Source: Acidobacteriaceae bacterium (GTDB lineage Bacteria > Acidobacteriota > Terriglobia > Terriglobales > Acidobacteriaceae). Taken from it: a stretch of DNA of 39,148 nt. Position numbers and translations under genes: made by a program. This document shows, piece by piece, positions 2,729 to 17,370 of this stretch. The notes under the pieces were generated by a model. That model was not told the origin of the DNA, ran no database searches, and saw only the letters and a list, made by a program, of their open reading frames with translations. Each line of letters begins with the position of its first letter. The first letter of the stretch is position 1. The stretch spans positions 1-39,148 of the forward strand of contig PLQW01000260.1 of the NCBI GenBank assembly GCA_003160215.1. Reading direction: 5' to 3'.

Positions 2729-3460
2729 CTACACACTACCTCCCAGAAATTGGCCCGCGTCCACGCGCAGAATCTGGCCGGTGATACGGCCTGCACCCGG
2801 ACCGCACAGAAAGAGCACGGCGGCGGCTACATCGGAAACTTCGAGCAGATTCCCCAGCACACTTTCCGCTTCCGCGGCTTGGCGGGCGGCTCCTGGCAAT
2901 GCTTCCGTCAGTGGTGTTCGTACCCAGCCGGGCTCGATCACGTTCACCAGAATTCCAAAGCGGCCGGTTTCGCGGGCGACGCTTTTGGCTAGACCCAGCA
3001 GTCCAGCCTTGCTGGCCGAGTAGGCCGAGGTGCCGAACTTACCGCGCGATCCATTGATGGAACCCATCAATACCACGCGGCCGCCCTGCCCTTGTCGCAT
3101 CAGAGGAATGGTATGCCGCAACAGCAAAAAAGCGCCACGTAAATTGACCGCTTGGATCGTGTCCCAATCTTCGACGGTAAGCTTCCACACGACCGCTTCA
3201 CGCGAAATTCCGGCGGCGTGAATCACCAGATCGAGCCGCCCATTCTGCTGAAAGAACTGTTGCACGGCGGAGCCCACGGAATCGTCGCTGCGCACATCGC
3301 AATGCAGCCAGGGAATGTCATTGTCGGGCGGCGGCGAGAGATCGAGAGAAGTTGCCACGGCTCCAGCTTGTTGCAAGGTGCGAACGATGGCGCTTCCGAT
3401 TCCTCCCGACCCGCCGGTGACCACGGCAGTCTTGCCCGCCAATTCTTTGGCGCTGGTCAT
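2729..3460 (-). CDS. short-chain dehydrogenase/reductase (SDR)
   Basis: A 243-residue classical SDR using NAD(P)H to interconvert an alcohol and a ketone. Visible motifs are the cofactor loop TGGSGGIGSA (about 15-24), the HAAGIS segment equivalent to NNAG, the catalytic Ser in GSINGSRG, and YSASKAG carrying the catalytic Tyr and Lys. The ATG at 3460 shares four bases with the bcrD stop and has a GGAGG site upstream. The position directly behind the reductase genes suggests a 3-hydroxyacyl-CoA dehydrogenase acting after ring cleavage, for example on 3-hydroxypimelyl-CoA. That substrate is inferred from context; FabG-like activity is the alternative. Confidence 0.85.
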   Translation of the reverse strand: MTSAKELAGKTAVVTGGSGGIGSAIVRTLQQAGAVATSLDLSPPPDNDIPWLHCDVRSDDSVGSAVQQFFQQNGRLDLVIHAAGISREAVVWKLTVEDWDTIQAVNLRGAFLLLRHTIPLMRQGQGGRVVLMGSINGSRGKFGTSAYSASKAGLLGLAKSVARETGRFGILVNVIEPGWVRTPLTEALPGAARQAAEAESVLGNLLEVSDVAAAVLFLCGPGAGRITGQILRVDAGQFLGGSV

Positions 3461-4335
3461 TGCGATACCTCCACCTGACCAGCCAGCATACGATGACGAT
3501 AGGCTCCCCACAAAGCCGCCCCCAGCGCGCCGGCGTAGATGGCGTTGGGGTGGGTGCGGATTTCCACGTCGAGGCCGTCTTTGCGTGCGCTTTCCTGCAA
3601 AGCCTGCGCTAAGCCGGTGTCCGCGGAGAGACCGCCGGTGATCGCCACATGGCCATGCACATCAATCGCCCGCAGCAGTTTCAGGTAGCGGCCAGCCATG
3701 GAAAGATGAATGCCTTTGAGAATGTCGGGGGTGGAGATTCCCCGGCTGACCATGTTGATTACATCGGTCTCCGCCAGGACGGCGCAGATGCTGCTGACCA
3801 CTTGTGGATTGCCGGCGCCGCAGGAGAGGGAGCCAACGTCCTGCAAAGCGATACCCAGGTAGCGGGCAATATTTTCCAGGAACTGGCCGGAGCCGGAAGC
3901 GCATTGCCCGGTCATGCGGTAGCTGAGCACGCGGCTGCGCTCGTCAATGCGCATGGCGCGCGCGTGCAAGGCCCCGACGTCGAGAACGGCGCGGACCTCG
4001 GGCATAAGAAAAATGGCGCCGCGAGCGTGGGTGGTCATGCCGTAGAAGTGCCCTCGGCGAAAATCCACCAACTCGCCCTCGCCGGTGCTGGCCACATAGC
4101 AAACCTCTTGCGCAGCCACGCCAGCCGCGCGGAGTGCCGCCTCGTATCCCTCATTGACTACCTTGCGCAACTCGCGGCGCCGTATGCGCTCGGTAAGCAG
4201 CGTAAGCACCTCGGTCTCACCGCCGCTGGTAGTGAGCAGCACGGCAATCTTCACCGCGCTGGAACCCACATCGACGCCAGCGGTAATCTGCCCCTCCGCA
4301 GATCGAGTCCTCGACGCAATGGTGGTGGTTGTCAT
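3457..4335 (-). CDS. bcrD: class I benzoyl-CoA reductase, subunit D (ATPase/activator)
   Basis: A 292-residue BadF/BadG/BcrA/D-family ATPase. With BcrA it hydrolyses ATP and passes low-potential electrons from ferredoxin to the BcrBC ring-reducing module. The ASKHA phosphate loop GVDVGSSAVK is at 20-29. The two conserved cysteines that bind the bridging 4Fe-4S cluster are C145 (GQCASGSGQFLE) and C184 (SSICAVLAETDV). The second nucleotide motif ITGGLSADTG is at 232-241. It overlaps bcrA upstream and the SDR gene downstream by ATGA. DVGALHARA at 119-127 takes the place of the DIGGQD found in BcrA. The related HgdC activator of 2-hydroxyacyl-CoA dehydratases is less likely because a second, larger ATPase subunit is adjacent. 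Confidence 0.9.
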   Translation of the reverse strand: MTTTTIASRTRSAEGQITAGVDVGSSAVKIAVLLTTSGGETEVLTLLTERIRRRELRKVVNEGYEAALRAAGVAAQEVCYVASTGEGELVDFRRGHFYGMTTHARGAIFLMPEVRAVLDVGALHARAMRIDERSRVLSYRMTGQCASGSGQFLENIARYLGIALQDVGSLSCGAGNPQVVSSICAVLAETDVINMVSRGISTPDILKGIHLSMAGRYLKLLRAIDVHGHVAITGGLSADTGLAQALQESARKDGLDVEIRTHPNAIYAGALGAALWGAYRHRMLAGQVEVSQ

Positions 4336-5663
4336 GGATTGGCCTGTGCGCTACGCCGGGCGAACAAAGCTGCGCCCAGAGCGCCGGTGTAAATCGAATC
4401 GGCGGAAATGTTCAGCGTCCGCTCGCCGTAATTCTCTTGCACCAACTGGCGCAGTGCGTCCACTGCCGCCGGATTGCGGGCCACCCCGCCGGTGAACGTG
4501 AACTCGTCACTGACGCCTCCGGAGCGCGCCAGCAGCGACATTGCTCGCAAAATGATGGCGCGATGCAGTCCCGCCAGTATGTCCTCGCGATTCTGGCCGA
4601 GGGAGAGGCGCTCGCGTAACTCCGCACCGGCAAAGACCGTGCACGTGCTGTTGATCTTCACCCGGCGCTGGCTCTGTTGGGCAAGCGGTCCCAACTCATG
4701 CAACCCCAGGTTCATTTCATCCGCAATGTAACCCAGGTAACGCCCGCATCCGGCAGCGCAGCGGTCATTCATCTGGAAGCTGACAACTATTCCGTCGGCG
4801 TCCACTTGGATTGCCTTGGTGTCCTGTCCCCCGATGTCCAGCACCGTCCGGGTGCTGGGGAACATGGCATGCGCGCCCAGTCCGTGGCAAAGAATCTCGC
4901 TGCGAATCTGCTCCTTGGGGAAAGGCAAGCGTTGGCGGCCATATCCTGTGCCCACCGTTCCGGCCTCTACGATCTCGGCGCGACAGGTCGCCTCCACCAC
5001 GGCGCGCAGCCGCGGCGCCTGCTCCTGCACCGCCCTCGTCGCCGACGCCAGAGTCGGCTCCAGCGCGCCCCGCAATTGTGTTTCGAAGCTACCCTGACCG
5101 GTCGAGTTCTCCACCACCAGGATGGCCGCGTCGAACAGCCCGCATAGCATGTCGAAGGTGATTCCACGTGAATCGTTGTGCTGCTCCGCCAACTGCATGT
5201 AGTCGGCGGTGGCAAGATCGCGGAAGAAGTCGCTCTTGCGCACCGCCAATTCGCTGAAGTGGACCGCGGTCCGCTCGACCATCCCATCCAGGATGCTTTC
5301 GAGCGCAGTAGTTAGTTCGCTACGATGAGCGCTGTGGCGCGCATCGCCGGTGGCGCGGAGCAGGGCTTCCCGCAGTCGCGCGAGCTGATCGAGATGCTGC
5401 CGAAACCGGAAGTTTCGCTGCAGCGAGGAAAGGAAAGCTTTCTCGACCTGGGCCAGGGCCGGATCGCCGCCGATGGCCTGCCGAGTGAGCGTGAAGCGGG
5501 TCCGGACCATCGCTTCCTCCCGCACCACCTGGCAGGCGACATCGTAATTACTGCGGCTGTTGGTGATGCCGCGGCCGATCACCTCGCCGGCGTCGTTGAG
5601 GACGACTGCCTTAGTGGTAGTAGAGCCGAGATCAATGCCGACATGGACCCGCAGTGTACTCAT
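4332..5663 (-). CDS. bcrA: class I benzoyl-CoA reductase, subunit A (ATPase)
   Basis: A 443-residue ATPase subunit. The phosphate loop GIDLGSTTTK is at 9-18 and the second motif DIGGQDTKAI at 276-285. Between them lies a long helical insertion of over 200 residues that simple HgdC-type activators lack. The cluster ligands are C302 (in DRCAAGCGRYL, with a further C306) and C341 (NSTCTVF). TGGVARN at 391-397 completes the nucleotide site. The length and insertion resemble, from memory, BcrA/BadF of the Thauera/Rhodopseudomonas type rather than the shorter Azoarcus BzdP/Q; this needs a tree. ATGA overlaps join it to bcrB and bcrD. Confidence 0.9.
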   Translation of the reverse strand: MSTLRVHVGIDLGSTTTKAVVLNDAGEVIGRGITNSRSNYDVACQVVREEAMVRTRFTLTRQAIGGDPALAQVEKAFLSSLQRNFRFRQHLDQLARLREALLRATGDARHSAHRSELTTALESILDGMVERTAVHFSELAVRKSDFFRDLATADYMQLAEQHNDSRGITFDMLCGLFDAAILVVENSTGQGSFETQLRGALEPTLASATRAVQEQAPRLRAVVEATCRAEIVEAGTVGTGYGRQRLPFPKEQIRSEILCHGLGAHAMFPSTRTVLDIGGQDTKAIQVDADGIVVSFQMNDRCAAGCGRYLGYIADEMNLGLHELGPLAQQSQRRVKINSTCTVFAGAELRERLSLGQNREDILAGLHRAIILRAMSLLARSGGVSDEFTFTGGVARNPAAVDALRQLVQENYGERTLNISADSIYTGALGAALFARRSAQANP

Positions 5664-6964
5664 GGGTTCGCGCCTGCGCGCTTTTGCTCGAGCATCTGCA
5701 AATAGCTCTCGATGCGGTTCTTGATGTTCGCGGCGGAGAAGTAGCGAGGATCCACCAGGTCGCTTTCGATGAAGCCGCCGGGGACGCCGGTGCGCTGCTC
5801 GAGTTGGCGCAGCATCAGGAGCTGGCCCACGCTAAAGGAGTTGCAGCTCTTGATGCTGTTGATCATGAATCCGTCGGCACGATACTCGCGGATGTAACGC
5901 TCCAGCAGCTCAACACGCGTTGGCAAGCCGAGATTGGTGTAACAGCCCATGCAGTATTCCGCCAGCGTCTCCAAGGGGCGTGCGGGATCGTGGCGGAAGC
6001 CGCCGTCGTACAGTCCTCCAACCTTGGTATAGCTGCTGGCTACTACCACCGCGCCTTCGTCGTAGAACATCTTCCAGAACTCGCGGAAGCTGGTCCAGTT
6101 AGGAGGACCTTCCATCACCAGCCGGTAGCGTTCCTTCTCCTGCGATCCTTCCGGCGTCAGCGGACCCAAACCTGAGCGCAGACGCTCTTCTACCTCTTCG
6201 TGAAGCGTGCGGTAGTAGGCCACACCTTCGGCGGTCCCACGAAACGCGGTGAACATTGGCCCGATGTAGTACACACCGCCGAAATAAGCATCGATGGGCG
6301 AGGGTACGTGCTTGGCCGATTCCAACACCCAGACCAAGTCATCTTCCGCCTGCGCCGAGAGCCGCAGCATTTCGCGCAGACGGTCCTCGTCGTAGCGCAG
6401 GCCGCTTACTTGTTCAAGTTTGGGAATCACTTCCGTGCGCAACTGCTGGACGATGTAGTCGACGTGATGGGGCAGAATACAGCCTTCGGACTGGTACGGC
6501 ACATGGAGCATGGCTACCGGGCAGTCGTATTCCTGGCGCAGCAGTTCGAACCACTTCATGAACGTGAAACAGCCGGTATAGGAGAGCAGAAGCAAGTCCG
6601 GTGGCGGCAGCTTTTCGCCGGTGGGACCGATGTTGCCCTTCTTCAACATTCCGATGTCGCACTTCACGTAGGTGCAAACGTCTTCGCTATGCCCGTGCTT
6701 CTCCGCCTCGGCAATGTAGTCGCCCGAAAGCTTGCGCATGCCGGACTGGAGCGCATTGATTTCAGGAAGCATCGGAAGCAGATTGAAGGAGCGCACCAGT
6801 TCGGTAAGATTGCCGGGAACGAAGGTATAAACCACCTTGCGGCCTTCTTGCGGAGCATGCGAGAGCGCGGTGTAGTGGCCCGCGATCATCTGCTTTTGCA
6901 GAGACATGCTGCGTTCCTTGCCGGCTTCCGTGGGGACGCGAGGGCTGGCGGATGCAGCAGTCAT
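5660..6964 (-). CDS. bcrB: class I benzoyl-CoA reductase, subunit B
   Basis: A 434-residue HgdB-family protein. BcrB and BcrC form the module that binds benzoyl-CoA and reduces the ring to cyclohexa-1,5-diene-1-carbonyl-CoA. Candidate cluster or active-site cysteines are C97 and C102 (VCTYVKCDIG), C132 (YTGCFTF), and the later EYCMGCYTNLG and IKSCNSF. The start at 6964 overlaps the bcrC stop by ATGA. An internal ATG 19 codons later (MSLQKQ) is an alternative start, because the first residues are low in conservation signal. A much longer in-frame reading upstream would run inside bcrC and is not credible. Confidence 0.9.
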   Translation of the reverse strand: MTAASASPRVPTEAGKERSMSLQKQMIAGHYTALSHAPQEGRKVVYTFVPGNLTELVRSFNLLPMLPEINALQSGMRKLSGDYIAEAEKHGHSEDVCTYVKCDIGMLKKGNIGPTGEKLPPPDLLLLSYTGCFTFMKWFELLRQEYDCPVAMLHVPYQSEGCILPHHVDYIVQQLRTEVIPKLEQVSGLRYDEDRLREMLRLSAQAEDDLVWVLESAKHVPSPIDAYFGGVYYIGPMFTAFRGTAEGVAYYRTLHEEVEERLRSGLGPLTPEGSQEKERYRLVMEGPPNWTSFREFWKMFYDEGAVVVASSYTKVGGLYDGGFRHDPARPLETLAEYCMGCYTNLGLPTRVELLERYIREYRADGFMINSIKSCNSFSVGQLLMLRQLEQRTGVPGGFIESDLVDPRYFSAANIKNRIESYLQMLEQKRAGANP

Positions 6965-8133
6965 GCTTGGCTCCACAGGCGGATGGAATCGGAGAATGTG
7001 CCCGCCTGCTCGCGAATGACGGCGAACTGGCCGGTGTCTTCGGAATATTTGAATTGCGTGTGGGGGATGCCTTCGCGGTCGAGCCTGGATATGAGCATGG
7101 GCTGCTCCAGCAGGGCGGGATCGCAGAAACTGGGCGCGCAAAAGATGACCCCTTCGGCCCGGTTGCGGCGGACCGATTCCACGAGTGCCCGTCCGTGTTC
7201 GCCCTCCGGCAGGTAGCGCGCCGCCGTTTCGGCGCTCTTGGTAAGGAAAGCCTCGACCAGGGCTTGCAATGGATCGCCGGCGCACGAGATATCACCCATG
7301 GTCCAGCGGAGCCCCAGAAGCAGGTCGTCATCCACGATCCAGCATCCGGCGCGTTCCAACGTAAGCAGCAGGCCCAGGGGCGGCTGCTCGCAGAACGTTC
7401 CCACTAACACGATCCGGCTCTGGTCACGATCGCGGCGCTCGGTTTCTAAAGGCGCCAGCCGCAGATATTCCCGCAGCAGCATGGTGTGATCTTCAGGCGG
7501 GAGGAGGTTCCCTGCTCGCAACAGCAGATACACTTCAGAGGTGGGGTAGACCCAAGGCTGGCGGCTGCGGGCGCTATACAGCTCGCGGATGGTGGAGCGG
7601 TTTTCGTTGTATACGGCGATGCTCTGTCGCAGGGCTTCATCTTCGATCGGCCGGCCGGCCAGGCGGCAAAGGTCCGCGCGCAGCGTCTCCAGTTCACGGC
7701 GCCAGTAAACCCCACCCACTTCGGGATCGAAGTTCTGCGGCAAATCCACGTAGCGGACGTAACGCTCCGGGAACAACATGGTCCACATGCCTGACAAATT
7801 GCGGATTACATCGCAGATGGAGGGAAACAACATGCCATCCAGCACGTCGAGCCGGCGGGTAAGAGCGAGTTCGATGGTACTGCGGGGAATATGGCAGATG
7901 TAGCTCTGGAAGTAGGCATCGCCGCGGATGATCTCTAGTCGCTCTCCCGCGCCCATAATGCCGACCGGCAACATTCCGGCCGCATGGATCAACTCACGCG
8001 GAACGTAGATGGGCATGTAGCCAATGGCTTTGCGCCCGGTCTCAGCTTCCTTCCAGGTCCGCACCGCCGTCAGGTCAAAGTCGTCGTTCAATTCCTGCGC
8101 GCCCTTGATTAGGTTGACGAGTTCCGGGCTCAC
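6961..8133 (-). CDS. bcrC: class I benzoyl-CoA reductase, subunit C
   Basis: A 390-residue HgdB-family subunit, the partner of BcrB in the ring-reducing module. The N-terminal part GYMPIYVPRELIHAAGMLPV (37-56) is typical of the family. Cysteines stand at C80 (YICHIPRS), C107 (FPSICDVI), C248 (GTFCEQPP), C284 (DISCAGD) and C332/C337 (FCAPSFCDP), the usual places for cluster and substrate contacts. The start is GTG at 8133, overlapping the stop of the short crotonase-like reading frame by GTGA. The following bcrB overlaps by ATGA, so the two subunits are translationally coupled. Length fits BcrC/BzdN. Confidence 0.9.
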   Translation of the reverse strand: MSPELVNLIKGAQELNDDFDLTAVRTWKEAETGRKAIGYMPIYVPRELIHAAGMLPVGIMGAGERLEIIRGDAYFQSYICHIPRSTIELALTRRLDVLDGMLFPSICDVIRNLSGMWTMLFPERYVRYVDLPQNFDPEVGGVYWRRELETLRADLCRLAGRPIEDEALRQSIAVYNENRSTIRELYSARSRQPWVYPTSEVYLLLRAGNLLPPEDHTMLLREYLRLAPLETERRDRDQSRIVLVGTFCEQPPLGLLLTLERAGCWIVDDDLLLGLRWTMGDISCAGDPLQALVEAFLTKSAETAARYLPEGEHGRALVESVRRNRAEGVIFCAPSFCDPALLEQPMLISRLDREGIPHTQFKYSEDTGQFAVIREQAGTFSDSIRLWSQA

Positions 8134-8234
8134 GCTGTCACCCCCGACTGGCGCCAGCGCGGCGGCCGCTTCTCAAGAAAGGCCTGTCCTTCGTGTTCAA
8201 ACGTCAGCCCGGCTTTGCTGGTGGAACTCATCAT
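8130..8234 (-). pseudogene. 34-codon crotonase C-terminal tail, probable dch remnant
   Basis: Between oah and bcrC, where Thauera-type clusters carry dch (cyclohexa-1,5-diene-1-carbonyl-CoA hydratase), only 34 codons remain. The frame starts with ATG at 8234 overlapping the oah stop (ATGA) and ends with TGA overlapping the bcrC start (GTGA). Its translation contains EGQAFLEKRPPRW, the usual ending of crotonase/enoyl-CoA hydratases (consensus EGxxAFLEKRxPxW), preceded by MMSSTSKAGLTFEH. It therefore looks like an in-frame internal deletion that removed nearly the whole enzyme but kept both gene junctions. An assembly deletion or a true small coupling peptide are alternatives. Nothing of the crotonase active site is left. 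Confidence 0.6.
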
Positions 8235-9337
8235 GGTTTACTTGTGCCCGCAGCCTGTGCCGTCCAGGGGGCAATCTCTTCAATTAGTTCATCGCTCCAC
8301 GGCACGCCTTCCGCTAAACGCCGGCGCAACAAGATGAAATCCACCTCCCGCTGCTCCTTGCTCCCGTAATGGAAGGCGCGGAAGCCGGCGCGCGCCTCGG
8401 TCATCATGTTCAACGACAGCCAGGCACGATTGGTTTCGCGGTTGCGGTCCCAGTGTTCCAGCTTGTGTTTGCGGAGGCTCTCGATGGTCTTGGTGAGGCA
8501 GTCGGGCATGGTGTACAGCAAGTTGGTGGACAACGCATCTACGGCCTCATCGAGAAGGGTCAGATCTACGGAACCCTTGGCGAGTAGCAACTTGCCTTGT
8601 GCGCGTTGGTCTCCGGTTTTCGCTTCGCCGATCGACAGCCGGCCGTATTCATCAAGCACACGATCGGTAACCACCAGTGGATTCGGTCTCCACTTCCCGT
8701 CCACCTTCAGCGCCGGGACAATCTGGGTCAGGCCTCCAAGCCAGTAGAAGCGGTGCGCACTCCAGGGTTCACCTAGCGTGCCACTGGCCATGGCGCGTTC
8801 CATTCCAACAAATAAAGGCAGAAAATCCGTGGACCCGCCATCTGGCGCCGATCCGTGCCGCGGGCCGGCCTGGCTGAAAACCGCCAGGTCGCTGGCCACG
8901 GAAAAATCGCACGCCATGCCCACCTCCTGACCTCCGCCGACACGCATCCCGTTCACCCGGCAAATCACCGGCTTGTCACATTGCAGGACGGCGGTCACCA
9001 TGTCGTTGAACAGCCGCATGTATTGGCGGTACTCCCCGGGATTGCCCGCGTAAACTTCCGCGTACTCACGCGTGTTGCCCCCGGCGCAGAAAGCGCGTGA
9101 TCCGGCGCCGGTCAGAACTACAGCCACCGCCGCCCGGTCGTTGCTGGCGGCGCGCAGCGCCAGAATGATCTCCTTCAGCATGTCGGTGGTATAGCTGTTG
9201 AGTTCGGACGGATTGTTCAGGGTTATCCAGAGGTTGTGCAGTCCTTCGACTGGCGCGCCCGATCGATCTTTCACCACTCGCTGTTCTACCAAAATGAAAT
9301 GGGTGGGAAACGACTCCACTAAGTTGTGGTCATGCAA
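8231..9337 (-). CDS. oah: 6-oxocyclohex-1-ene-1-carbonyl-CoA hydrolase
   Basis: A 368-residue crotonase-superfamily hydrolase (Oah/BamA/BzdY) that adds water and cleaves the alicyclic ring to 3-hydroxypimelyl-CoA. The oxyanion-hole segments are GAGSRAFCAGGN (77-88) and GGGQEVGMACDFSVASD (134-150). The family-specific AGPRHGSAPDGGSTDF follows at 157-172, and the long C-terminal extension with LRRRLAEGVPWSDELIEEI matches the family length of about 370-380. The start is TTG at 9337, eight bases after AAAGGAG; a nearby ATG at 9333 is out of frame and stops at once. It lies 13 bases behind had. BamA homologues mark anaerobic aromatic degraders. Confidence 0.93.
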   Translation of the reverse strand: MHDHNLVESFPTHFILVEQRVVKDRSGAPVEGLHNLWITLNNPSELNSYTTDMLKEIILALRAASNDRAAVAVVLTGAGSRAFCAGGNTREYAEVYAGNPGEYRQYMRLFNDMVTAVLQCDKPVICRVNGMRVGGGQEVGMACDFSVASDLAVFSQAGPRHGSAPDGGSTDFLPLFVGMERAMASGTLGEPWSAHRFYWLGGLTQIVPALKVDGKWRPNPLVVTDRVLDEYGRLSIGEAKTGDQRAQGKLLLAKGSVDLTLLDEAVDALSTNLLYTMPDCLTKTIESLRKHKLEHWDRNRETNRAWLSLNMMTEARAGFRAFHYGSKEQREVDFILLRRRLAEGVPWSDELIEEIAPWTAQAAGTSKP

Positions 9338-9350
9338 AATCGTATCTCCT

Positions 9351-10436
9351 TTACTGCGGGCCCTCGTGATCCGGGACCAGAATCACGCGTTTGCGAATTT
9401 CATGGCGGGCCACCGCCTCCAGCAGAGTAGGCGCCTCGTCCAGCGGATGCCGCTCCACGTAAGGTTCCAGAACCACTTTACCTTGCAGCACCAGCGCGAG
9501 CGCGGCCGGATACTGTTCCGGCGGGCAACCCCAGTTGCCGCGCGCTGTAGCATCGAACGCCATAAGGTTGGAGAGCCGCAGTTCGACTTTCTTGGGCGTG
9601 AACCCGACCACAGCCAGGTAACCGCCATGGTCGAGCAGTCCGAACGCAATGGTTTGGCCTGCCGGCGTCCCACTGGTCTCGAAGATTTTCAGCCCGATGC
9701 CCTCGCGCCCGGACTGTTTGACAAAGGAGCGCACCGCGGATTTCAGTTCCTTCTCGTTCGCGGAACTGGCATCCAACGTCTGCGATGCGCCGTGCCGGGC
9801 CGCCAAGTCAAGCCTAGCTTGGTCGACGTCAATGGCCACAACGGCCGCCCCCATGGCGGCAGCGATCTGGACGCCGAATCCACCGACTCCTCCCACGCCC
9901 ACAAATACAGCCACGTCCTCCGCTCCTAAGCCAGACCGTCGAATCGCCTCGAAAGGGGTAGTGACCGCATCGGCGACCACGGACAGGAGATCAAGAGTGA
10001 TGCCTGGCGGCAGATTTTCGGGAACCGGACAGAGTCCACGGGCGGGAACGCGAACGTGAGTCGCAAAGCCTCCATCGCCGTCGTTGCCGGGCATGAACTG
10101 CCGCCGGCAAATAGTGGGTTGGCCGGCTCGACATGGACCACAATCGCCGCACGGGATCACAGCAGGAACGATTACGTTGCGGCCTTCCCACTTCGTGGCA
10201 CCCTCGCCCGCTGCCATGACGCGACCCGAGATTTCGTGTCCGAGAGTGAGTGGCAGTGGGGCGCGCGTGGGCACCCCGTCGTAAGCGAAGCCGACATCGG
10301 TATGGCAAACGCCGCAGCCGGCAACCTCTATCACCACTTCGTCAGCCCGCGGCCCAGGAAGCGAGAATTCGTATCTCTCCAGCCTTTGAGCGGGAGCCAT
10401 CAGACGGTAGCCATAGCCGCCTAGCGTGGACGACAA
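9351..10436 (-). CDS. had: 6-hydroxycyclohex-1-ene-1-carbonyl-CoA dehydrogenase
   Basis: A zinc-dependent medium-chain alcohol dehydrogenase of about 361 residues that oxidises 6-hydroxycyclohex-1-ene-1-carbonyl-CoA to the 6-oxo form with NAD+. Catalytic zinc ligands are in CGVCHTD (41-47) and GHE (66-68). Structural zinc cysteines are C96, C99, C102 and C110. The NAD loop is GVGGVGGFGVQ. The substrate assignment rests on adjacency to oah and bcrCBAD. I prefer the TTG at 10436: it follows an AGGGGGG ribosome site by 9 bases, gives a family-like N-terminus, and leaves room for the upstream promoter. ATG at 10499 (382 residues), TTG at 10511 and ATG at 10400 are alternatives. Confidence 0.88.
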   Translation of the reverse strand: MSSTLGGYGYRLMAPAQRLERYEFSLPGPRADEVVIEVAGCGVCHTDVGFAYDGVPTRAPLPLTLGHEISGRVMAAGEGATKWEGRNVIVPAVIPCGDCGPCRAGQPTICRRQFMPGNDGDGGFATHVRVPARGLCPVPENLPPGITLDLLSVVADAVTTPFEAIRRSGLGAEDVAVFVGVGGVGGFGVQIAAAMGAAVVAIDVDQARLDLAARHGASQTLDASSANEKELKSAVRSFVKQSGREGIGLKIFETSGTPAGQTIAFGLLDHGGYLAVVGFTPKKVELRLSNLMAFDATARGNWGCPPEQYPAALALVLQGKVVLEPYVERHPLDEAPTLLEAVARHEIRKRVILVPDHEGPQ

Positions 10437-10494
10437 GCAGGGAATCCCCCCTGCCCCAAGATCGCTTCTAACTGCGACGCTCGGGGGAGTGGCT

Positions 10495-10536
10495 ACCATA
10501 CCGTGCGACAACCCGGAACTCTGTGATCTAAATCAC
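10495..10536 (-). promoter_or_regulatory. CRP/FNR-type operator and promoter for the benzoyl-CoA operon
   Basis: The perfect palindrome GTGAT-CTAA-ATCAC lies at 10523-10536, matching the shape of CRP/FNR-family sites. If its centre (10529.5) is placed at -41.5, as in class II activated promoters, transcription would start near 10488. The expected -10 hexamer at 10500-10495 then reads TATGGT, four of six bases like TATAAT. This leaves a leader of about 50 bases before the preferred had start. AadR (R. palustris) and AcpR (Azoarcus) are FNR/CRP-type activators of anaerobic aromatic genes, which fits the context. The exact regulator cannot be told from the site. Confidence 0.6.
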
Positions 10537-10825
10537 CAAGGCGAGTGAGGACGATTGGACGGAGAGTCCAGGCGGGTGCAGTTCACTTCAGAATGTCTTT
10601 CGCCTCCGATGGATGGTAATCAAAAGTGCTCCGGGATTAGGGCTGGTGCTACTCTAGAGTTTTCTCAGTGATCTCCGTGCCTCCCTGGTTAATTTTCATT
10701 TCTATGGGTGGGCCGCAGGCCCATATAACGCTCAGGATGACGGAAGTAGGGGTCAGGTTACCGGCAACCGATTACCGATAACTGACAACTGACAACTGAC
10801 AACTGACAACTGACTACTGGCTACT
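10537..10825. repeat. non-coding stretch ending in ACTGACA heptad repeats
   Basis: No gene is seen between the operon promoter and the TPR gene end. A short hairpin TGGGCC-GCA-GGCCCA is at 10710-10724, and GCTCAGGATGAC at about 10731-10742 matches part of the repeat near 20050. From 10781 the heptamer ACTGACA occurs four times in a row, followed by the variants ACTGACT and ACTGGCT. The array runs straight into the TAG stop of the TPR gene on the minus strand. Confidence 0.7.
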
Positions 10826-11378
10826 GCTTGTTCAGCTTGTCGAGCGCCTCCTGGGCCCTCTTCGCATATGGCCCATTGGGAAGGATCTTCAGGTAGGCTT
10901 CGTAATTTTCCACGGCGCCAGCGGTGTCGCCGGTTTTATTCAAGACCTCTGCCAGTTTGAACGTGGCCTCGGCATCGTGGGGCTTATATTCCAGCGCCTC
11001 GCGATAGCGGCTGATGGCGGCGGGATAATTTTGCTTGACCTTGACGTAGAAGTCGCCGATCTCCACGCACTTCATCGCCCGCATGGGATTGTAGGGCGTG
11101 AATTCATCGACATCGCTTGCGCTGTCGCCCAGTTCCGCTTCGGGATGCTTCTTGGCATCGTCGGAGGGAGGGGAAACGTCGATTCGCGTCTGTTTGCTGG
11201 AGCTTTCCCCGGCGGGAACGTTGTCAGATCGCGGCGGAGATTTGCGATTGTCTTTGGGTGGAGGGGCTGATTTATCGGTGGGAACCTGTTCGACCGGCTG
11301 CTGGTCTTGCGCGACCGCAATACCCGTAAACCAGAGACAAAGTACGGCGAGAATCAAATAACGGAAACGCACTCCCAT
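10821..11378 (-). CDS. exported TPR-repeat protein
   Basis: A 185-residue protein with a signal peptide (MGVRFRYLILAVLCLWFTGI, cut after about AVAQ), a charged Pro/Ser/Lys-rich linker to about residue 95, and two to three TPR units: AMKCVEIGDFYVKVKQNYPA, AISRYREALEYKPHDAEATF and GDTAGAVENYEAYLKILPNG. It is likely periplasmic and resembles small BamD/YbgF-like TPR proteins only in general form. The start at 11378 was chosen because the signal peptide begins there; the ribosome site is weak. The stop codon touches a heptad-repeat array. No specific function is recognised. Confidence 0.8.
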   Translation of the reverse strand: MGVRFRYLILAVLCLWFTGIAVAQDQQPVEQVPTDKSAPPPKDNRKSPPRSDNVPAGESSSKQTRIDVSPPSDDAKKHPEAELGDSASDVDEFTPYNPMRAMKCVEIGDFYVKVKQNYPAAISRYREALEYKPHDAEATFKLAEVLNKTGDTAGAVENYEAYLKILPNGPYAKRAQEALDKLNKQ

Positions 11379-11430
11379 ATTGTATTGGAACCCGGAAATC
11401 CAGTTCAGGACTCGTTGAGCGGATGGCGAC

Positions 11431-11877
11431 TCACCGTCGCCGGATGTGCAGCACCTTCTGTACTTCGGCGACCACGTCGCCGGCTTCATCCTTCACCTCG
11501 ACCACGAATGTCGGCTCATACTTCTCCTGGGTCGCGAGCTTTTCGCGAATGTCGTCGAGTTGCGCGTCGGTCAAGCGAAACTCGGCCTTGACTCTTCCCT
11601 TCCCGGGTTTGCGGAAGCGGATGCTGGCGGCTTTGTCCCAGACAATGTAGTCGCGGCCCAGGTTCTCCATCAGCATCAGCATATAAAACGGATCGGCCAT
11701 GGAGTAGAGCGAGCCCCCATAGTGGGTGCCGACATAGTTGCGGTTCCAGAACCGCAACTTCATTTCGACGTCGACGGCTTTGTGGTCGGCGCTCCACTTG
11801 ACCCGAATCCCGGCGCCGAAGAACGGCGGCCAGATGTTGATAGAGCGGAGCATGAGTCGTTGGAGTTTTGTGCTCAT
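11431..11877 (-). CDS. DUF4442 hotdog-fold (thioesterase-like) protein
   Basis: A 148-residue protein of the DUF4442/PaaI-like hotdog superfamily. The conserved centre reads [20 protein letters not shown] (about 42-61), where HYGG occupies the place of the active-site loop of acyl-CoA thioesterases. [20 protein letters not shown] strand and a C-terminal [14 protein letters not shown] follow. Family members are assumed to act on acyl thioesters, but no substrate is known. It is 52 bases upstream of the exported TPR gene on the same strand and could be co-transcribed with it. A link to the benzoyl-CoA operon is not indicated. Confidence 0.75.
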
Positions 11878-12247
11878 TTGCGAAGCGTCGACCGGAGCAG
11901 CGCTGCCGCATCAAGGGTCGACAAACAAGAATGATGATAGACCTTGGGGCGGGTTCAGGTTTTGTGTTTGGTAGAGCTGGCCTTCTTGAGCATTAGGGGC
12001 CGAGAACGACAAAAAGCAGATCCCTCGCGGGCTGAAGCCCGCTCGTGATGACAAAAATAAGAGGCTTACCCGCGCACTCTTCGACAGGCTCAGGGGGCAG
12101 GCTCTAAAGGTGCGCCCCTTACAAGTCCATTGCAGACAATGGCTCCTTCAGCAGCCTTGCTAGACCAGTTGCTCATACAACACTTCAACAATGCCTGAAC
12201 GCACAAAATATATGGTGAGATCTGAGGTTGCAAGAGGGAAAATGAAG
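11878..12247. other. non-coding stretch with a small hairpin repeat
   Basis: No convincing gene is seen. A hairpin GCGGGCT-GA-AGCCCGC lies near 12029-12044 inside a segment (CCTCGCGGGCTGAAGCCCGC, then TCGTGATGAC) that resembles other short dispersed repeats in this window. Confidence 0.5.
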
Positions 12248-12274
12248 AAGGCCGTCCACCATGAAGACGGCCTT
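12248..12274 (-). terminator. hairpin terminator for the OmpA-like gene
   Basis: AAGGCCGTC (12248-12256) and GACGGCCTT (12266-12274) form a perfect 9-bp stem with a 9-base loop. On the minus strand it is followed by CTTCATTTTCCC, a weak T-rich tract. It lies about 90 bases past the OmpA-like stop at 12366. Confidence 0.6.
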
Positions 12275-12365
12275 TCTAGGATGGGCGACTTCGTCCACCA
12301 ACTCCTCAAGGAGGAGAACTTTCAGCGCGGTCGATCCCCCTCCGACCGCGCCTCTTCCCCGGTCA

Positions 12366-13103
12366 CTACTGCTGTTGCATCTGCACCGAGGAGCTGAGCT
12401 GCGCGGACGAAGCCGACTCGGTCGCATTGTTCGTCATCAGGGTTACATCCACGCGGCGGTTCTTGGCTCGCCCGGAGGCGCTGGTGTTCATGGCTACGGG
12501 ATTGTCCTTGCCCAGACCGATTAGGTAAATCTTGTACGCTGGAACGTTACATTTCTGGGCCAGGTACTGGATGACGGCGTCGGCGCGGCGCTGGCTGAGT
12601 TGGTAGTTGTAATCAGCCGGTCCGACCGAATCGGTGTAGCCTTCGACTTGAACGATGTAATGCTTCTGGCTGCCCATCTGCTGCGCGAACTCGTCGAGTG
12701 CCTGTTTGTCCTTGCGCGTGAGATCGGCCTTGTTGAAGGCAAACAGAACCGTGGTGTCGCTGACCGGCTTGTAGTTGTCCAGATTCTCAACCGTACCGGC
12801 CAGGCTGGTCACGCGATGCGAGGCCTGAGTAGCGTTCTGATTGGCCTGGTCGGCAGCCTGACCCGCAGCCAGGGCCTTCTGATCTGCGGTTGCCGCCTGC
12901 GACTTCGCCTGCTGAATGCCCTGTTGGGCACGGGAGTCGGTGTCCCGGATGTCGTGAGTATTTTTCGCGGTTAGATCATCTAATTCATTGACCTTGTTTA
13001 TCGTCGGCGCCACTTCGTTGCGGACATACTTTTTGGTGGCGCAGCCCACGGTAAACGACAGGCTGCCGGCCACCAGCGCTGCTACAAGGGTAAATCGATT
13101 CAT
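12366..13103 (-). CDS. OmpA/Pal-like peptidoglycan-associated lipoprotein
   Basis: A 245-residue protein with an export signal ending SLSFTVGC, so C21 is the likely lipid-modified cysteine, although the residue three before it is not the usual Leu. A helical, Ala/Gln-rich segment (about 30-110, heptad-like, Lpp-type) follows. The C-terminal OmpA domain (about 118-225) has VLFAFNKADLT, VEGYTDSVG, YNYQLSQRRADAV and GRAKNRRVDV, the residues that bind diaminopimelate in peptidoglycan. A Ser/Gln-rich tail ends in MQQQ. It probably ties the outer membrane to the cell wall. The ATG at 13103 has AAGGAG nine bases upstream; it is divergent from uvrC. Confidence 0.88.
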   Translation of the reverse strand: MNRFTLVAALVAGSLSFTVGCATKKYVRNEVAPTINKVNELDDLTAKNTHDIRDTDSRAQQGIQQAKSQAATADQKALAAGQAADQANQNATQASHRVTSLAGTVENLDNYKPVSDTTVLFAFNKADLTRKDKQALDEFAQQMGSQKHYIVQVEGYTDSVGPADYNYQLSQRRADAVIQYLAQKCNVPAYKIYLIGLGKDNPVAMNTSASGRAKNRRVDVTLMTNNATESASSAQLSSSVQMQQQ

Positions 13104-13477
13104 GGAATGAACTCCTTGCAAACTTTCGGCGGCGGCATTCGAGTTTGCGCCGGCCTCTGGAGAAGGGATGAGCAACCATGCTGCCATTGGGGGATAGCTG
13201 CAGCGACAGAAAAGACCTTTTAGTTTCAATGGGTTGGAACGAGCCGTGGAGCGATCGGTCCGGGCCACGAGACCGGGCCGGATAATCCTGACGCGAGGAG
13301 TAGAATTTTTACCACGTTGAGGCGGTTGCGGGCGTCCGATCCGGATGTCGAAGGCGCGACGATTTTGCGCGGGATGTAGGTGGAAGTGCCCGCGGCTGAA
13401 TCCCGAGCGAAGAGCCGAGCGACCCAAATCATGCTTCAAAGCGACCGACTCGTTTGGGTTCCTGTCATCAGAGCTGA
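13104..13477. other. divergent intergenic region ompA-like / uvrC
   Basis: These 374 bases should hold the promoters for the OmpA-like gene (minus) and uvrC (plus). No clear consensus boxes, repeats or small genes were recognised. Confidence 0.5.
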
Positions 13478-15304
13478 ATGGACCTTCACCAGAAAATTCG
13501 GACATTGCCAGCCTCGCCCGGCGTGTATCTCTACAAGAACGCCGACGGCGAAATCATCTACGTGGGCAAGGCCAACAGCCTGCGCGCCCGCGTGCGTTCC
13601 TATTTTCTGGAAGGCGCCGCCGACAACGCCAAGACCGGATCGCTGCTGCGGGAAGCCGTCGACCTCGACTACATCGTCGTGGACAACGAGAAGGAAGCGC
13701 TGGCGCTCGAGAACAACCTGATCAAGCAGAAGAAACCGCGCTACAACATCCTTCTGCGCGACGACAAGACATACCCGTACATCAAACTGACGATCGGCGA
13801 GCGGTATCCGCGCGTCTATCCGACGCGCCGGTTGCGCCGCGACGGATCGCTCTACTTCGGGCCTTATTTCCCCACGAGCCTGGCCTATCGGATCGTAGAC
13901 CTCATCCACCGGCACTTTCTGATTCCCTCGTGCAAGCTCGACCTGAATCGTTACTATCCGCGACCGTGCTTGCAGTACTACATCGGGCGCTGCCTGGGGC
14001 CGTGCGTTGAAGGGCTCACCACGCCCGAGCGCTACGCCGAAGCCGTACACGACGTGCGGATGTTCCTCGAAGGCCGAGGCGCCGATCTATCGCGCTCCTT
14101 GCAGCAGCGTATGGCAGCCGCGGCCGAGCGCCAGCAGTATGAACTGGCGGCAAAGTATCGCGATCTCATCTCGACCGTCGAGTTGCTGGACAAGAAGCAG
14201 CGCATCGCCGCGGTTGAGGGTGACGATGCCGATGTCTTTGGATATCACTACGAAAATGAGATGCTGGCGGTGAATCTTTTTCACATGCGTGGCGGCAAGA
14301 TCGTGGACAAGCGCGAGTTCTTCTGGGAAGACCTCGGCGATATGCCCGGCACTGCGGGCTTCGAGCCGGGAGAATTCTTTTCGGCGCTGCTGAAGCAGGT
14401 TTACCTGGATCAACAGTATGTGCCGCACACGATATATGTTGCGGTGGACTTCGAAGATCGCATCCCGCTGGAGGAAGTGCTCTCGGAAGGCCAGAAGCGG
14501 CGGGTGCAGATTCACGTACCGCAGCGCGGCGACAAGCGCTCGCTGATCGACCTGGTAGGACAGAATGCTAAGCAGTCGTATGATCAGCGCTTCCGCGTCA
14601 TGAAGCCGGCGGCCAAGGCGATCCAGGAAGCCTTGCAGGACGCGCTCATGCTGCCGGAGTTGCCCAAGCGGATTGAGTGCTTCGACATCTCGCACATTCA
14701 AGGCGCCGAAACGGTCGCCTCGATGGTGGTCTGGGAAGACGGCAAGATGAAGAAGTCCGACTATCGCAAGTTCATCATCAAAGGCGTCGAGGGTGTCGAC
14801 GACTTCGCCTCGATGCGCGAGGTGGTAACCCGCCGTTACAAGCGAGTTCAGGAAGAAAAGCAGAACATGCCGAGCCTGGTGCTGATCGATGGCGGCATCG
14901 GACAACTGCACGCTGCGGCGCAGGCGCTGGAAGCGCTGGGCATCATCAACCAGCCACTGGCCTCGATCGCCAAACGCGAGGAGATCATATACGTCAACGG
15001 GCAGGAGGACGAGCCGGTGGTGCTGGACCGCCGCTCGCCGGTGCTGCACCTGGTGCAATTGGTCCGCGATGAGGCCCACCGCTTTGCCGTGACCTTCCAT
15101 CGCAAACGGCGGCAGATTCGCGACCGCCAGACCGAACTACTGGAGATCCCCGGCGTGGGTGAACGGACCACCAACCGCCTGTTGCAGCACTTCGGCAGTC
15201 TGCAAGCGGTGAAGCAGGCGGACGCCGCAGCGCTGACGTCGGTGGTGAGTCGTCCACAAGCAGACGCGATTCTGCGCTATTTTGGAAAGGAAGAGAGCAG
15301 TTAG
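13478..15304 (+). CDS. uvrC: excinuclease ABC subunit C (UvrC)
   Basis: A 608-residue UvrC, the nuclease that cuts DNA on both sides of a lesion in nucleotide excision repair with UvrA and UvrB. The GIY-YIG domain is at the N-terminus (SPGVYLYKNADGEIIYVGKA, 13-32). Four cysteines C152, C164, C172 and C176 match the 4Fe-4S ligands described for UvrC. A UVR helix pair for UvrB contact (QQYELAAKYRDLIS) follows near 220, then the RNase H-like endonuclease domain with CFDISHIQGAETVASMVV and VLIDGGIGQLHAA. A C-terminal helix-hairpin-helix (EIPGVGERTTNRLLQHFGS) ends it. Length is normal. The ribosome site is weak; the start fits the family N-terminus. Confidence 0.96.
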   Translation: MDLHQKIRTLPASPGVYLYKNADGEIIYVGKANSLRARVRSYFLEGAADNAKTGSLLREAVDLDYIVVDNEKEALALENNLIKQKKPRYNILLRDDKTYPYIKLTIGERYPRVYPTRRLRRDGSLYFGPYFPTSLAYRIVDLIHRHFLIPSCKLDLNRYYPRPCLQYYIGRCLGPCVEGLTTPERYAEAVHDVRMFLEGRGADLSRSLQQRMAAAAERQQYELAAKYRDLISTVELLDKKQRIAAVEGDDADVFGYHYENEMLAVNLFHMRGGKIVDKREFFWEDLGDMPGTAGFEPGEFFSALLKQVYLDQQYVPHTIYVAVDFEDRIPLEEVLSEGQKRRVQIHVPQRGDKRSLIDLVGQNAKQSYDQRFRVMKPAAKAIQEALQDALMLPELPKRIECFDISHIQGAETVASMVVWEDGKMKKSDYRKFIIKGVEGVDDFASMREVVTRRYKRVQEEKQNMPSLVLIDGGIGQLHAAAQALEALGIINQPLASIAKREEIIYVNGQEDEPVVLDRRSPVLHLVQLVRDEAHRFAVTFHRKRRQIRDRQTELLEIPGVGERTTNRLLQHFGSLQAVKQADAAALTSVVSRPQADAILRYFGKEESS

Positions 15305-15371
15305 GATTTAGCCGTTGGTAATTAGAGGTTGGCGGTTAGCATTGAGTCTGCACAGGCCAGTGTAGTTTTTG

Positions 15372-15399
15372 GCTAATTGCTAATTGCTAATTGCTGATT
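15372..15399. repeat. GCTAATT heptad array
   Basis: Three exact copies of GCTAATT (15372-15392) and a fourth GCTGATT (15393-15399) lie between uvrC and the DUF4337 gene, ending 12 bases before its start codon. Degenerate units (GGTAATTAG, GGTTAGC) extend upstream to the uvrC stop. Confidence 0.85.
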
Positions 15400-15411
15400 C
15401 CGCGGAGGCAC

Positions 15412-15954
15412 ATGAGCGACGAACTGAATGAACTGAAAGAAGCGGCAGAGCGGGCGAAAGAAAACAAGGCGATGGCTCCGGTCAGCCTGACCATGGCAAT
15501 TCTGGCAGTACTGGTGGCCACGGTTTCGCTGCTCGGCCATCGGGCACATACGGAAGAAATCCTGATGCAGACCCGGGCGACCGACCAGTGGGCCTATTAC
15601 CAGGCAAAGAACATGCGCCGCAACAATCTGGAGGCGCTCGACGATGTACTGACGGCGCTGGAGAACACCAAGGCCGAACGCGCCGAGCAGGTGCAGAAAC
15701 ACTTCCACGAAGAGATTGACAAGTATCGCGATCAGCAGAAGGACATCCAGAACGAAGCGCGCGGACTGGAGGCGGAAGTGGGACGCGCCAGCCGTCGCGC
15801 CGACCGCTTCGACCTGGGCGAGGTGTTTCTGGAGATCGCGCTGGTCGTCACCTCCATTACCTTGCTCACGGACAAGCGCGCGTACTGGTACTTCGGCTTT
15901 GTTCTCGCGATCCTCGGCGTGATCAGCGCAGCCAGCGGATTTCTGGCGCACTGA
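15412..15954 (+). CDS. DUF4337 membrane protein
   Basis: A 180-residue protein with a charged cytoplasmic start, a transmembrane segment (VSLTMAILAVLVATVSLLG, about 24-42), a long helical middle rich in Glu, Lys and Arg (about 45-135) that should form a coiled coil, and two C-terminal membrane segments (VFLEIALVVTSITLL and YWYFGFVLAILGVISAASGF). This is the layout of the DUF4337 family, whose function is unknown. The ATG at 15412 follows GGAGG closely; a heptad-repeat array sits directly upstream. The coiled coil suggests oligomer formation. Confidence 0.82.
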   Translation: MSDELNELKEAAERAKENKAMAPVSLTMAILAVLVATVSLLGHRAHTEEILMQTRATDQWAYYQAKNMRRNNLEALDDVLTALENTKAERAEQVQKHFHEEIDKYRDQQKDIQNEARGLEAEVGRASRRADRFDLGEVFLEIALVVTSITLLTDKRAYWYFGFVLAILGVISAASGFLAH

Positions 15955-16107
15955 GGGCGGGAGCCTGCCTTCGTCGCTCTTGAGATTCGCAGAGACATCC
16001 GCCTTGGATTTGTCATCACGAGCGCAGCCGGGGGTCCCTGGCGAGTGCTGGTTTTGCACTCGCTGGGGTGAAGGAGCGACTGCTAACTGCTAATTGCCGG
16101 TTTACTT

Positions 16108-16725
16108 ATGGCCATCATCGTCATTGGCGGACACTCTCGCAGCGTGGGCAAGACCAGCGTGGTCGCCGGTCTGATTGCCGCTCTCCCCGAGTTTCACTGG
16201 ACGGCCATCAAGATCACGCAATACGGACACGGGATTTGTTCCGCCAACGGCGAACTCTGCAACTGCGCCACCGACGACCACAGTTGGGCCGTGACCGAAG
16301 AGCCCGATCGCAGCGGCGATAGCGACACCTCTCGCTTTCTTCTCTCCGGCGCAGCTCGCTCGCTCTGGGTGCGTACCCGCCAGGGAATGCTGGCTGAAGC
16401 CATGCCTCGCGTGCGCAAGGAACTCGCCGGCGCCGAGAACGCTATCGTCGAATCCAACTCGATAATGCGCTTCCTGCGCCCCGACCTTTACCTGACGGTG
16501 CTCGACCCGACGACCGCCGACTTCAAGACCTCGGCACAAGAATTTCTCGATCGCGCGGACGCCGTGATCCTGCACGACGGCAGTGGCGATGTTGCCTGGG
16601 CGAACGTCTCACTCAAACCAGTGGCCGCCAAACCGAGATTCCACATCCGCCCGCCGCAGTATGTGACACCCGAGTTGATCGAATTTGTGCGGGAGAGAGT
16701 CCGCCATGGAGCATCGAGGGTGTAG
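16108..16725 (+). CDS. P-loop NTPase, MobB-like
   Basis: A 205-residue protein with a Walker A loop GGHSRSVGKTS (7-17) near the N-terminus. DTSRFLLSGAARSLWVRT (about 72-89) recalls the D(T/S)xRxxxAGA signature of MobB-type GTPases of molybdenum-cofactor attachment. A distinctive CSANGELCNCATDDHSW (about 44-60) carries three Cys and a His and may bind a metal. EsNSIMRFLRPDLYLTVLDP, holding a possible Walker B strand, follows. No MoCo genes are next to it, so a MobB role is doubtful; I would call it a MobB-superfamily protein of unknown role. A degenerate heptad repeat (CTAACTGCTAATTGC) precedes it and no good ribosome site is seen. Confidence 0.7.
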   Translation: MAIIVIGGHSRSVGKTSVVAGLIAALPEFHWTAIKITQYGHGICSANGELCNCATDDHSWAVTEEPDRSGDSDTSRFLLSGAARSLWVRTRQGMLAEAMPRVRKELAGAENAIVESNSIMRFLRPDLYLTVLDPTTADFKTSAQEFLDRADAVILHDGSGDVAWANVSLKPVAAKPRFHIRPPQYVTPELIEFVRERVRHGASRV

Positions 16726-16804
16726 GCACGTGGAGCGCGACCATCCCGCCAGCGTGCCGCGATCTTCAACGGCTGCGAACGCTTGAAATCTTTCAGGAGG
16801 ACAC

Positions 16805-17209
16805 ATGTCCACATTTGGCTTCATCGAATACAACGACGCCAGTCCGGAGGTGCGGGCGGTGTATGACGACATCATGGCGACGCGCAAGACCGATTCGATC
16901 AGCAATTTCTGGAACGCGATCGCCCACGATCCGGAACTGTTGAAGCGTACCTGGGAGGACACCAAGCAGATCATGGCGCCGGGCGCGCTGGATGCGGTGG
17001 TGAAGGAGCTGATCTACGTTGCGGTGAGCGTGACCAATGGCTGCCCCTATTGCGTCGCTGCGCATACGGTCTCGGCGCGAAAGAAAGGCATGAGCGACGA
17101 AATGTTCCACGAGATGATGTCCGTGGTCGGCATGGCGAATGAAAACAACCGGCTGGTGAACGGCTATCAGGTCGAGATCGACGAGCAGTTCAAGACGCCG
17201 CTGAAGTGA
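16805..17209 (+). CDS. carboxymuconolactone decarboxylase / AhpD-like protein
   Basis: A 134-residue CMD-family protein. The motif KELIYVAVSVTNGCPYCVAAH (about 60-80) carries the redox CxxC (CPYC) and the following His of AhpD-like alkylhydroperoxidase helpers. The rest is all-helical as expected. Such proteins reduce peroxides or other thiol-linked oxidants; true carboxymuconolactone decarboxylases lack the CxxC, so that activity is unlikely. The ATG at 16805 has an excellent AGGAGGACAC ribosome site. It stands 79 bases after the P-loop gene. Confidence 0.88.
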   Translation: MSTFGFIEYNDASPEVRAVYDDIMATRKTDSISNFWNAIAHDPELLKRTWEDTKQIMAPGALDAVVKELIYVAVSVTNGCPYCVAAHTVSARKKGMSDEMFHEMMSVVGMANENNRLVNGYQVEIDEQFKTPLK

Positions 17210-17370
17210 GACCTTGGCAGCGAACAGGCCGTCCATGCCTCGCCCCGCGCAGAGATGCCGAGGGTCACTGTCTTCGGCACCTTTTACTTTATTTCGTGGT
17301 GCAATGGCGATTGATCGCCAGCTATTTCGTATCGCCGCCTCTGCGTTCGTTACTGCAGAGGGTTACCCAG

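Follow-up and report, generated by a model that had tools for sequence, protein, structure and literature searches.

The window, i.e. the whole analysed stretch of 39,148 nucleotides, carries on its minus strand an operon for benzoyl-CoA degradation. Had, Oah, BcrA, BcrB, BcrC and BcrD each score above the respective NCBIfam equivalog cut-off, the only exception being a 34-codon frame located between oah and bcrC. The start of bcrB was set at the start of the profile match, within the open frame 5660-7285. The features are as follows.

9351-10511, minus strand: had, 6-hydroxycyclohex-1-ene-1-carbonyl-CoA dehydrogenase (TIGR03201, 436.6 bits, above cut-off)
8231-9337, minus strand: oah, 6-oxocyclohex-1-ene-1-carbonyl-CoA hydratase/hydrolase (TIGR03200, 540.3 bits; cut-off 464.45)
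8231-8234, minus strand: ATGA, overlap of the oah stop with the remnant start
8130-8234, minus strand: dch remnant, 34 codons in frame, head plus tail (by comparison with the intact L036 dch)
8183-8186, minus strand: CAGG at the deletion junction, present at both breakpoints in the intact L036 dch
8130-8133, minus strand: GTGA, overlap of the remnant stop with the bcrC start
6961-8133, minus strand: bcrC, benzoyl-CoA reductase subunit C (TIGR02263, 531.6 bits; cut-off 421.15)
5660-6928, minus strand: bcrB (TIGR02260, 711.3 bits, above cut-off)
4332-5663, minus strand: bcrA (TIGR02259, 584 bits, above cut-off)
3457-4335, minus strand: bcrD (TIGR02261, 364 bits, above cut-off)

A short-chain dehydrogenase gene (2729-3511, minus strand) immediately follows bcrD and is perhaps a member of the operon. 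The operons nearest to that of the window, with a BcrC 88-90% identical, are found in Acidobacteriota MAGs. The initial annotation, made from the window alone, had reported that dch is missing between oah and bcrC and that a 34-codon frame lies there, overlapping oah by ATGA and bcrC by GTGA; all this is confirmed at the coordinates given above. An operon-encoded Dch, expected for a class I operon of the Bcr type, is therefore represented in the window by the 34-codon remnant only.

The frame translates into MMSSTSKAGLTFEHEGQAFLEKRPPRWRQSGVTA, followed by a stop codon. It was compared with the intact, 261-codon dch which separates oah from bcrC in L036, a locus from the same genome as the congener G004. 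In the remnant, the codons as far as FEHEGQ match the beginning of dch, and those from AFLEKRPPRWRQSG onwards match the end; in the intact frame FEHE.Q lies near the beginning and AFLEKRPPRWRQSG stands at the end, and the two pieces are joined in the window. The frame had been described as the tail of a crotonase: the tail stands, but not the tail only, since the first codons match the dch start. The alignment confirms that the frame is the head and the tail of a dienoyl-CoA hydratase (Dch) joined in frame. The single CAGG at the window junction is matched by two CAGG tetramers in L036, separated by 690 nt (230 codons), and the proposal of a clean internal deletion is supported by this spacing and by the intact gene in the same position. 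Of the last 54 nt of the remnant, 46 agree with the L036 dch end, a value reached at that place by none of 20,000 shuffles, which rules out a frame arisen by chance.

Against the end of the L036 dch, the last 16 sense codons of the remnant show 6 synonymous and 2 nonsynonymous changes. Had the whole window branch drifted neutrally, about 5-9 nonsynonymous changes would be expected, the probability of finding two or fewer ranging from 0.10 to 0.008 for an assumed dS of 0.15 to 0.245. The small number of nonsynonymous changes weakly favours, given that dS is assumed, a recent deletion. The loss of the dch interior is taken as real, and as probably recent.

In four loci of the same genus (L035, L037, L038 and L064) dch is absent as well, and is replaced by a frame of 10 codons (MSAATKARLA or close variants of it), whose ends overlap oah (ATGA) and bcrC (GTGA). 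Over its first 30 nt, the frame of L037 matches the start of the window remnant at 22 positions. All together dch is absent from five genomes of the genus, which show two different remnants. The same junction in related genomes, pointed to by the initial annotation as a check, thus holds an intact dch in L036 and a 10-codon stub, not the 34-codon frame, in the four congeners; the 34-codon form was found at none of the relatives' junctions that were read. That its product could be a functional micropeptide under selection would agree with the 2 nonsynonymous changes observed where drift predicts more, but a recent deletion gives the same substitution pattern and the congeners make a different, 10-codon product, so that this reading is regarded as very improbable.

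These relatives also bear on the suggestion that the assembly had lost about 0.7 kb, or, more generally, that an assembly or binning artefact hides an intact dch in the real genome. The 34-codon form is known from one assembly only, as such an artefact would predict. The bases common to the two breakpoints, however, number only about 4, too few to collapse an assembly graph, and no Dch above cut-off is found on any contig of the window's genome. A collapsed assembly is also made unlikely by the four congeners, dch-less at the same place, which keep a different stub together with both stop-start overlaps; all of them are MAGs of one 'palsa' series and are therefore not fully independent evidence. 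An artefact is accordingly considered a slim chance. The trees disagree on whether the genus underwent one deletion or two: the window's genome (G000) groups with the 10-codon clade both in the tree of the hcr cluster described below (97/95) and in the combined tree (88/90), whereas in the operon tree L036, not the window, groups with that clade (82/47).

In order to evaluate how general the loss is, BcrC was searched in larger sets of genomes. A scan of genome contigs gave 34 loci, and BcrC above cut-off was found in 32 of 396 genomes of the phylum, 7 of 399 of the class and 24 of 148 of the class of G110, the sets being overlapping. Forty-five operons having oah and bcrC together were kept, and a tree was built from Had, Oah, BcrC and BcrB. 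Loci lacking a visible oah beside bcrC were left out (L043, L057, L059-L061, L065, L066, L113, L120, L123-L129, L131, L136, L138-L140, L211, L220, L223, L226-L228), as were second copies of genomes or operons, among them L005-L011, L052, L056, L112, L114, L116, L117, L121, L134, L209, L210, L212-L215, L217, L218, L222 and L224. The pairs L009/L201 and L010/L202 were not placed; L201 and L202 belong to G009 and G042, both with dch and outside the tree.

The gene is present in 23 of the 45 operons and absent from 22, and dch-less operons are found in several families. At least 8 changes in dch presence are needed on the tree, 7 of them forced by well-supported branches. If dch was never regained, and with the outgroup chosen here, there are 11 loss lineages, or 10 if the genus of the window lost dch once. 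On this assumption, the tree shows that dch was lost repeatedly among the surveyed operons. One operon branch (L049 at 8749-9228, L115, L219, L225, L122) carries a GNAT-type acetyltransferase gene (Pfam) between oah and dch or bcrC; it precedes dch in L049 and L115, and is kept in L219, L225 and L122, from which dch is gone. A divergent arrangement, in which bcrC is preceded by a Dch-like and a Had-like (35%) gene, was observed in L211 and L012 (G058), where the Oah-like gene scores 162.9 bits, far below the cut-off of 464.45.

The junctions left by the losses are compact. In 10 of the 11 loss lineages bcrC is still reached through an uninterrupted series of stop-start overlaps (L216 lies outside the junction-level reading), and in the eleventh, represented by L122, a gap of 2 nt precedes bcrC. 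The series may run through a micro-frame, of 34 codons in the window, 10 in its congeners, 30 in L042 and 8 in L039, for which an origin from dch is unproven; elsewhere it consists of a direct ATGA, GTGA, TTGA or TGATG overlap, or of a 25-codon frame (L205). In L207 the overlap is longer and holds a candidate start, and in L219 and L225 the stop of the GNAT gene overlaps bcrC. The start of the L042 frame resembles the dch of its close relatives, and its stop lies 11 nt inside bcrC; remnants resembling dch are thus known from the window, its congeners and L042. By eye, no dch likeness is seen at the oah-bcrC junction of L205 (G110), whose frame has GTGA and ATGA overlaps, or at that of L039, whose frame VSRRGKAA has a GTGA overlap at either end. 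In L206 (G332) the BcrC frame extends upstream without interruption as far as a GTG that overlaps the stop codon of oah, which gives a long extra N-terminus, and the corresponding DNA appears partly palindromic by eye.

Translational coupling by stop-start overlaps of the ATGA or TGATG type is a known system (see PMC6728339, PMC12548453). In several dch-bearing operons oah, dch and bcrC are joined by such overlaps too, the oah-dch junction of L036 having none; the overlaps found after dch loss show continuity, therefore, and not selection by itself. From the arrangement of its overlaps, the window stub would keep bcrC translationally coupled to oah.

The genes around the stub are maintained. 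When the window was compared with L036, L037 and L038, dN/dS values of 0.057-0.172 were obtained for the had, oah and bcr genes (bcrA and bcrD being absent from the L036 comparison), a pattern which shows purifying selection on Had, Oah and Bcr, and the pathway is therefore probably still running. This weighs against a decaying or altered pathway, in which the reductase product is left unhydrated and the operon is either being lost or put to a different use. A central step lacking a confirmed gene and a stub of recent appearance would fit decay, but the remaining genes are intact, two of the genomes compared (L037 and L038) themselves carry the 10-codon stub, and dch-less operons occur in several families; decay is rated as doubtful.

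A hydratase encoded elsewhere is the best fit among the three options left by the initial annotation, the others being an altered pathway and an assembly error. It is favoured by the candidate described here, called Dch2, and by the unlinked crotonases of dch-less genomes. In the window's genome (5.34 Mb, 93.8% complete), where a search for Dch homologues had been advised, no contig gives a TIGR03189 match above the cut-off of 292.5 bits. The matches found are Dch2, at 144.3 bits, followed by three others at 81.9, 79.1 and 55.2 bits; none of the four lies on the contig of the window (C18). Dch2 is the best candidate:

G000, contig C149, 113935-114708: Dch2, a Dch-type crotonase of 258 aa (TIGR03189, about 144 bits)

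The operon Dch of L036 also remains below the cut-off, with 232 bits, and Dch2 is 36% identical to it. TIGR03189 is the best NCBIfam match for the Dch2 of both G000 and G004, in G000 (L098) with a lead of just 0.1 bit over the next model; for the Dch2 of L104 it ranks seventh. The L036 Dch has 29 PDB matches, of which none carries the name dienoyl-CoA hydratase.

Dch2 lies beside genes resembling a 4-hydroxybenzoyl-CoA reductase. The alpha subunit is above cut-off (1022.8 bits against 994.55), the beta subunit is a best match yet below cut-off (321.9 against 404.55), and the gamma subunit is ambiguous (171.2 against 257.8, and outscored by a glyceraldehyde dehydrogenase model with 180.8). The neighbourhood further holds TetR-type, rhodanese and Amidohydro_2 genes. 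A fuller cluster is seen in L104 (G068, 5115-15899), L107 (G065, 5320-15173) and L192 (G201, 3571-17215), and a reduced form in L098 of the window's genome (3694-11412). Its order is tetR, enoyl-CoA hydratase, aldehyde dehydrogenase, a short BoxB-like protein (Pfam PaaA_PaaC), Dch2, rhodanese (not seen in L107), hcrC-hcrA-hcrB and amidohydrolase, an odd pairing of an oxygenase-like protein with a 4-hydroxybenzoyl-CoA-reductase-like enzyme. The same-genus regions L098-L103 and L203 give no BoxB-like or aldehyde dehydrogenase match.

Orthologues of Dch2 are present in all 9 same-genus genomes, including three without an Oah above cut-off (G001, G003, 71% complete, and G006, 74% complete), which implies another, native role for Dch2. 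In the crotonase tree, operon Dch (100/99), hcr-linked Dch2 (99/93) and other unlinked crotonases form one larger group (95/92), within which Dch2 is a clade of its own; under midpoint rooting, and with only ten ordinary enoyl-CoA hydratases in the set, this group is separate from the latter. Residues were compared by L036 numbering. His70 and Pro138 are found in 29/29 operon Dch, 14/14 Dch2, 18/19 other rows and 0/9 ordinary enoyl-CoA hydratases, the single other row without them (L023) grouping with the ordinary hydratases; Tyr229 is found in 29/29, 14/14, 15/19 and 0/9, respectively. Three positions fixed in operon Dch are replaced in Dch2: Ser66 by Asp (14/14, as in 8/9 ordinary hydratases), Val135 by Cys (14/14) and Arg211 by Tyr (13/14).

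The presence of paralogues was then related to dch loss, a paralogue being defined as an unlinked TIGR03189 match of at least 120 bits, a threshold set after the scores were seen. An unlinked Dch-type crotonase was found in 21 of 22 dch-less genomes searched and in 5 of 20 dch-bearing ones (Fisher p 2.5e-6, related genomes inflating the test). A tree-aware pairs test showed the same trend (about 3.8 to 0.2 of 7 pairs), which was not significant (median p 0.125). In a smaller set of operons, with G341 scored as lacking Dch, the figures were 16/18 and 5/18. In the larger set G341 was scored as positive for a counterpart of the G404 Dch, broken by the end of contig C18 and readable for about 47 residues, L041 for a partial match of 122 bits, and L063 for a second operon-type Dch; L058, L062 and L067 are in the tree, outside the paralogue search. 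Two operon-type Dch matches, on contigs C27 and C34 (239.2 and 242.2 bits), were observed in the genome of L063 (G081). The dch-bearing G009, outside the tree, also has Dch2, and G042, likewise dch-bearing, shows no second TIGR03189 match above 99.2 bits. The paralogues come from several clades, so no single enzyme replaced Dch everywhere.

The dch-less genome of L051 (G076, probably the same as G839; 84% complete) has no Dch-type paralogue, and is in line with the main rival explanation, namely that Oah, besides opening the 6-oxo ring, also hydrates the dienoyl-CoA by 1,4-addition, making dch dispensable. According to the available part of PMC5742626, the OAH of Thauera alone hydrates a fluorinated 1,5-dienoyl-CoA, an activity formerly thought unique to DCH, but its conversion of the non-fluorinated dienoyl-CoA is negligible. 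A convergent change in Oah was looked for and rejected. Columns 12, 36 and 184 passed the filter, the first and the last with mixed residues, and Leu at column 36 is the sole case of one new residue shared by three lineages. This column holds Leu in the window, L064, L039, L119 and L208, Ile in L040 and L051, and Val or Ala in the dch-bearing rows with a residue there. The change is conservative, however, and absent from other loss lineages, with Val in L037, L038, L042, L111, L204, L205-L207, L118, L216, L054 and L122 and Ala in L225. That paralogue presence parallels dch loss also speaks against this rival. An Oah performing both steps is retained as an unlikely alternative, ahead of the others considered.

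The explanation preferred, with somewhat better than even confidence, is that dch was deleted in the window's operon, that hydration is now performed by Dch2 in trans and that the stub keeps bcrC coupled. A deletion spanning about 690 nt, with a direct repeat of 4 bases at its borders and possibly caused by these short matches, took out the dch interior, leaving the in-frame stub of 34 codons. The 1,4-hydration of cyclohexa-1,5-diene-1-carbonyl-CoA would then most likely be carried out by Dch2, encoded on another contig. Points against Dch2 in this role are its low TIGR03189 score and separate clade, the replaced residues Ser66, Val135 and Arg211, its occurrence in genomes without Oah above cut-off, and, for the trans reading in general, the paralogues of five dch-bearing genomes and the lack of one in the genome of L051. 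Ribosomes finishing oah would pass through the ATGA and GTGA overlaps of the stub to bcrC, and by this relay the deletion would not have uncoupled the reductase genes.

A broader reading, advanced tentatively and held less probable than its opposite, is that the Acidobacteriota operon sheds dch repeatedly, unlinked crotonases of several clades hydrating in trans, that the short stop-start overlaps bordering each gene spare the operon polar damage, that short matching stretches favour clean excision, and that rebuilt overlaps or micro-frames, maintained by selection, relay ribosomes to bcrC. If so, the micro-frames (dch-like those of 34, 10 and 30 codons, unproven those of 8 and 25) would be selected deletion footprints which gene callers discard. 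They constitute a natural experiment on how an operon can shed a gene from its middle and keep the following one coupled. Annotators would score the benzoyl-CoA pathway as incomplete here, though selection maintains its other genes. Should the hydratase work in trans, operon dch would be a poor marker of the pathway, and Dch2 and its kin would become enzymes assignable by a direct assay; should Oah perform both steps, the 2-fluorobenzoate work on OAH would be extended. In the open literature, judged by title and start of abstract, no report of dch loss in Acidobacteriota was found, and nothing combining overlapping genes, gene loss, microhomology and operon; the available part of PMC3794298 mentions neither 'hydratase' nor 'Acidobacteria'.

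The window system is a variant of the known class I benzoyl-CoA degradation, in which the hydratase gene of the operon was lost and probably replaced in trans. With the class I operon of the Thauera, or Bcr, type (had-oah-dch-bcrCBAD) it shares, as L036, L044 and L055 do, the order had-oah-(dch)-bcrC; it differs in that dch is a 34-codon stub and the hydratase, if any, is unlinked. Compared with Dch as defined by TIGR03189, Dch2 has His70, Pro138 and Tyr229 in common, whereas it scores 144 bits against 292.5, forms a separate clade, is linked to hcr and not to bcr genes, and has Ser66, Val135 and Arg211 replaced. As in known cases of stop-start translational coupling, the window stub has a 4-nt overlap at each end; the difference is that in the window a deletion remnant seems to bridge two genes that were formerly not neighbours.
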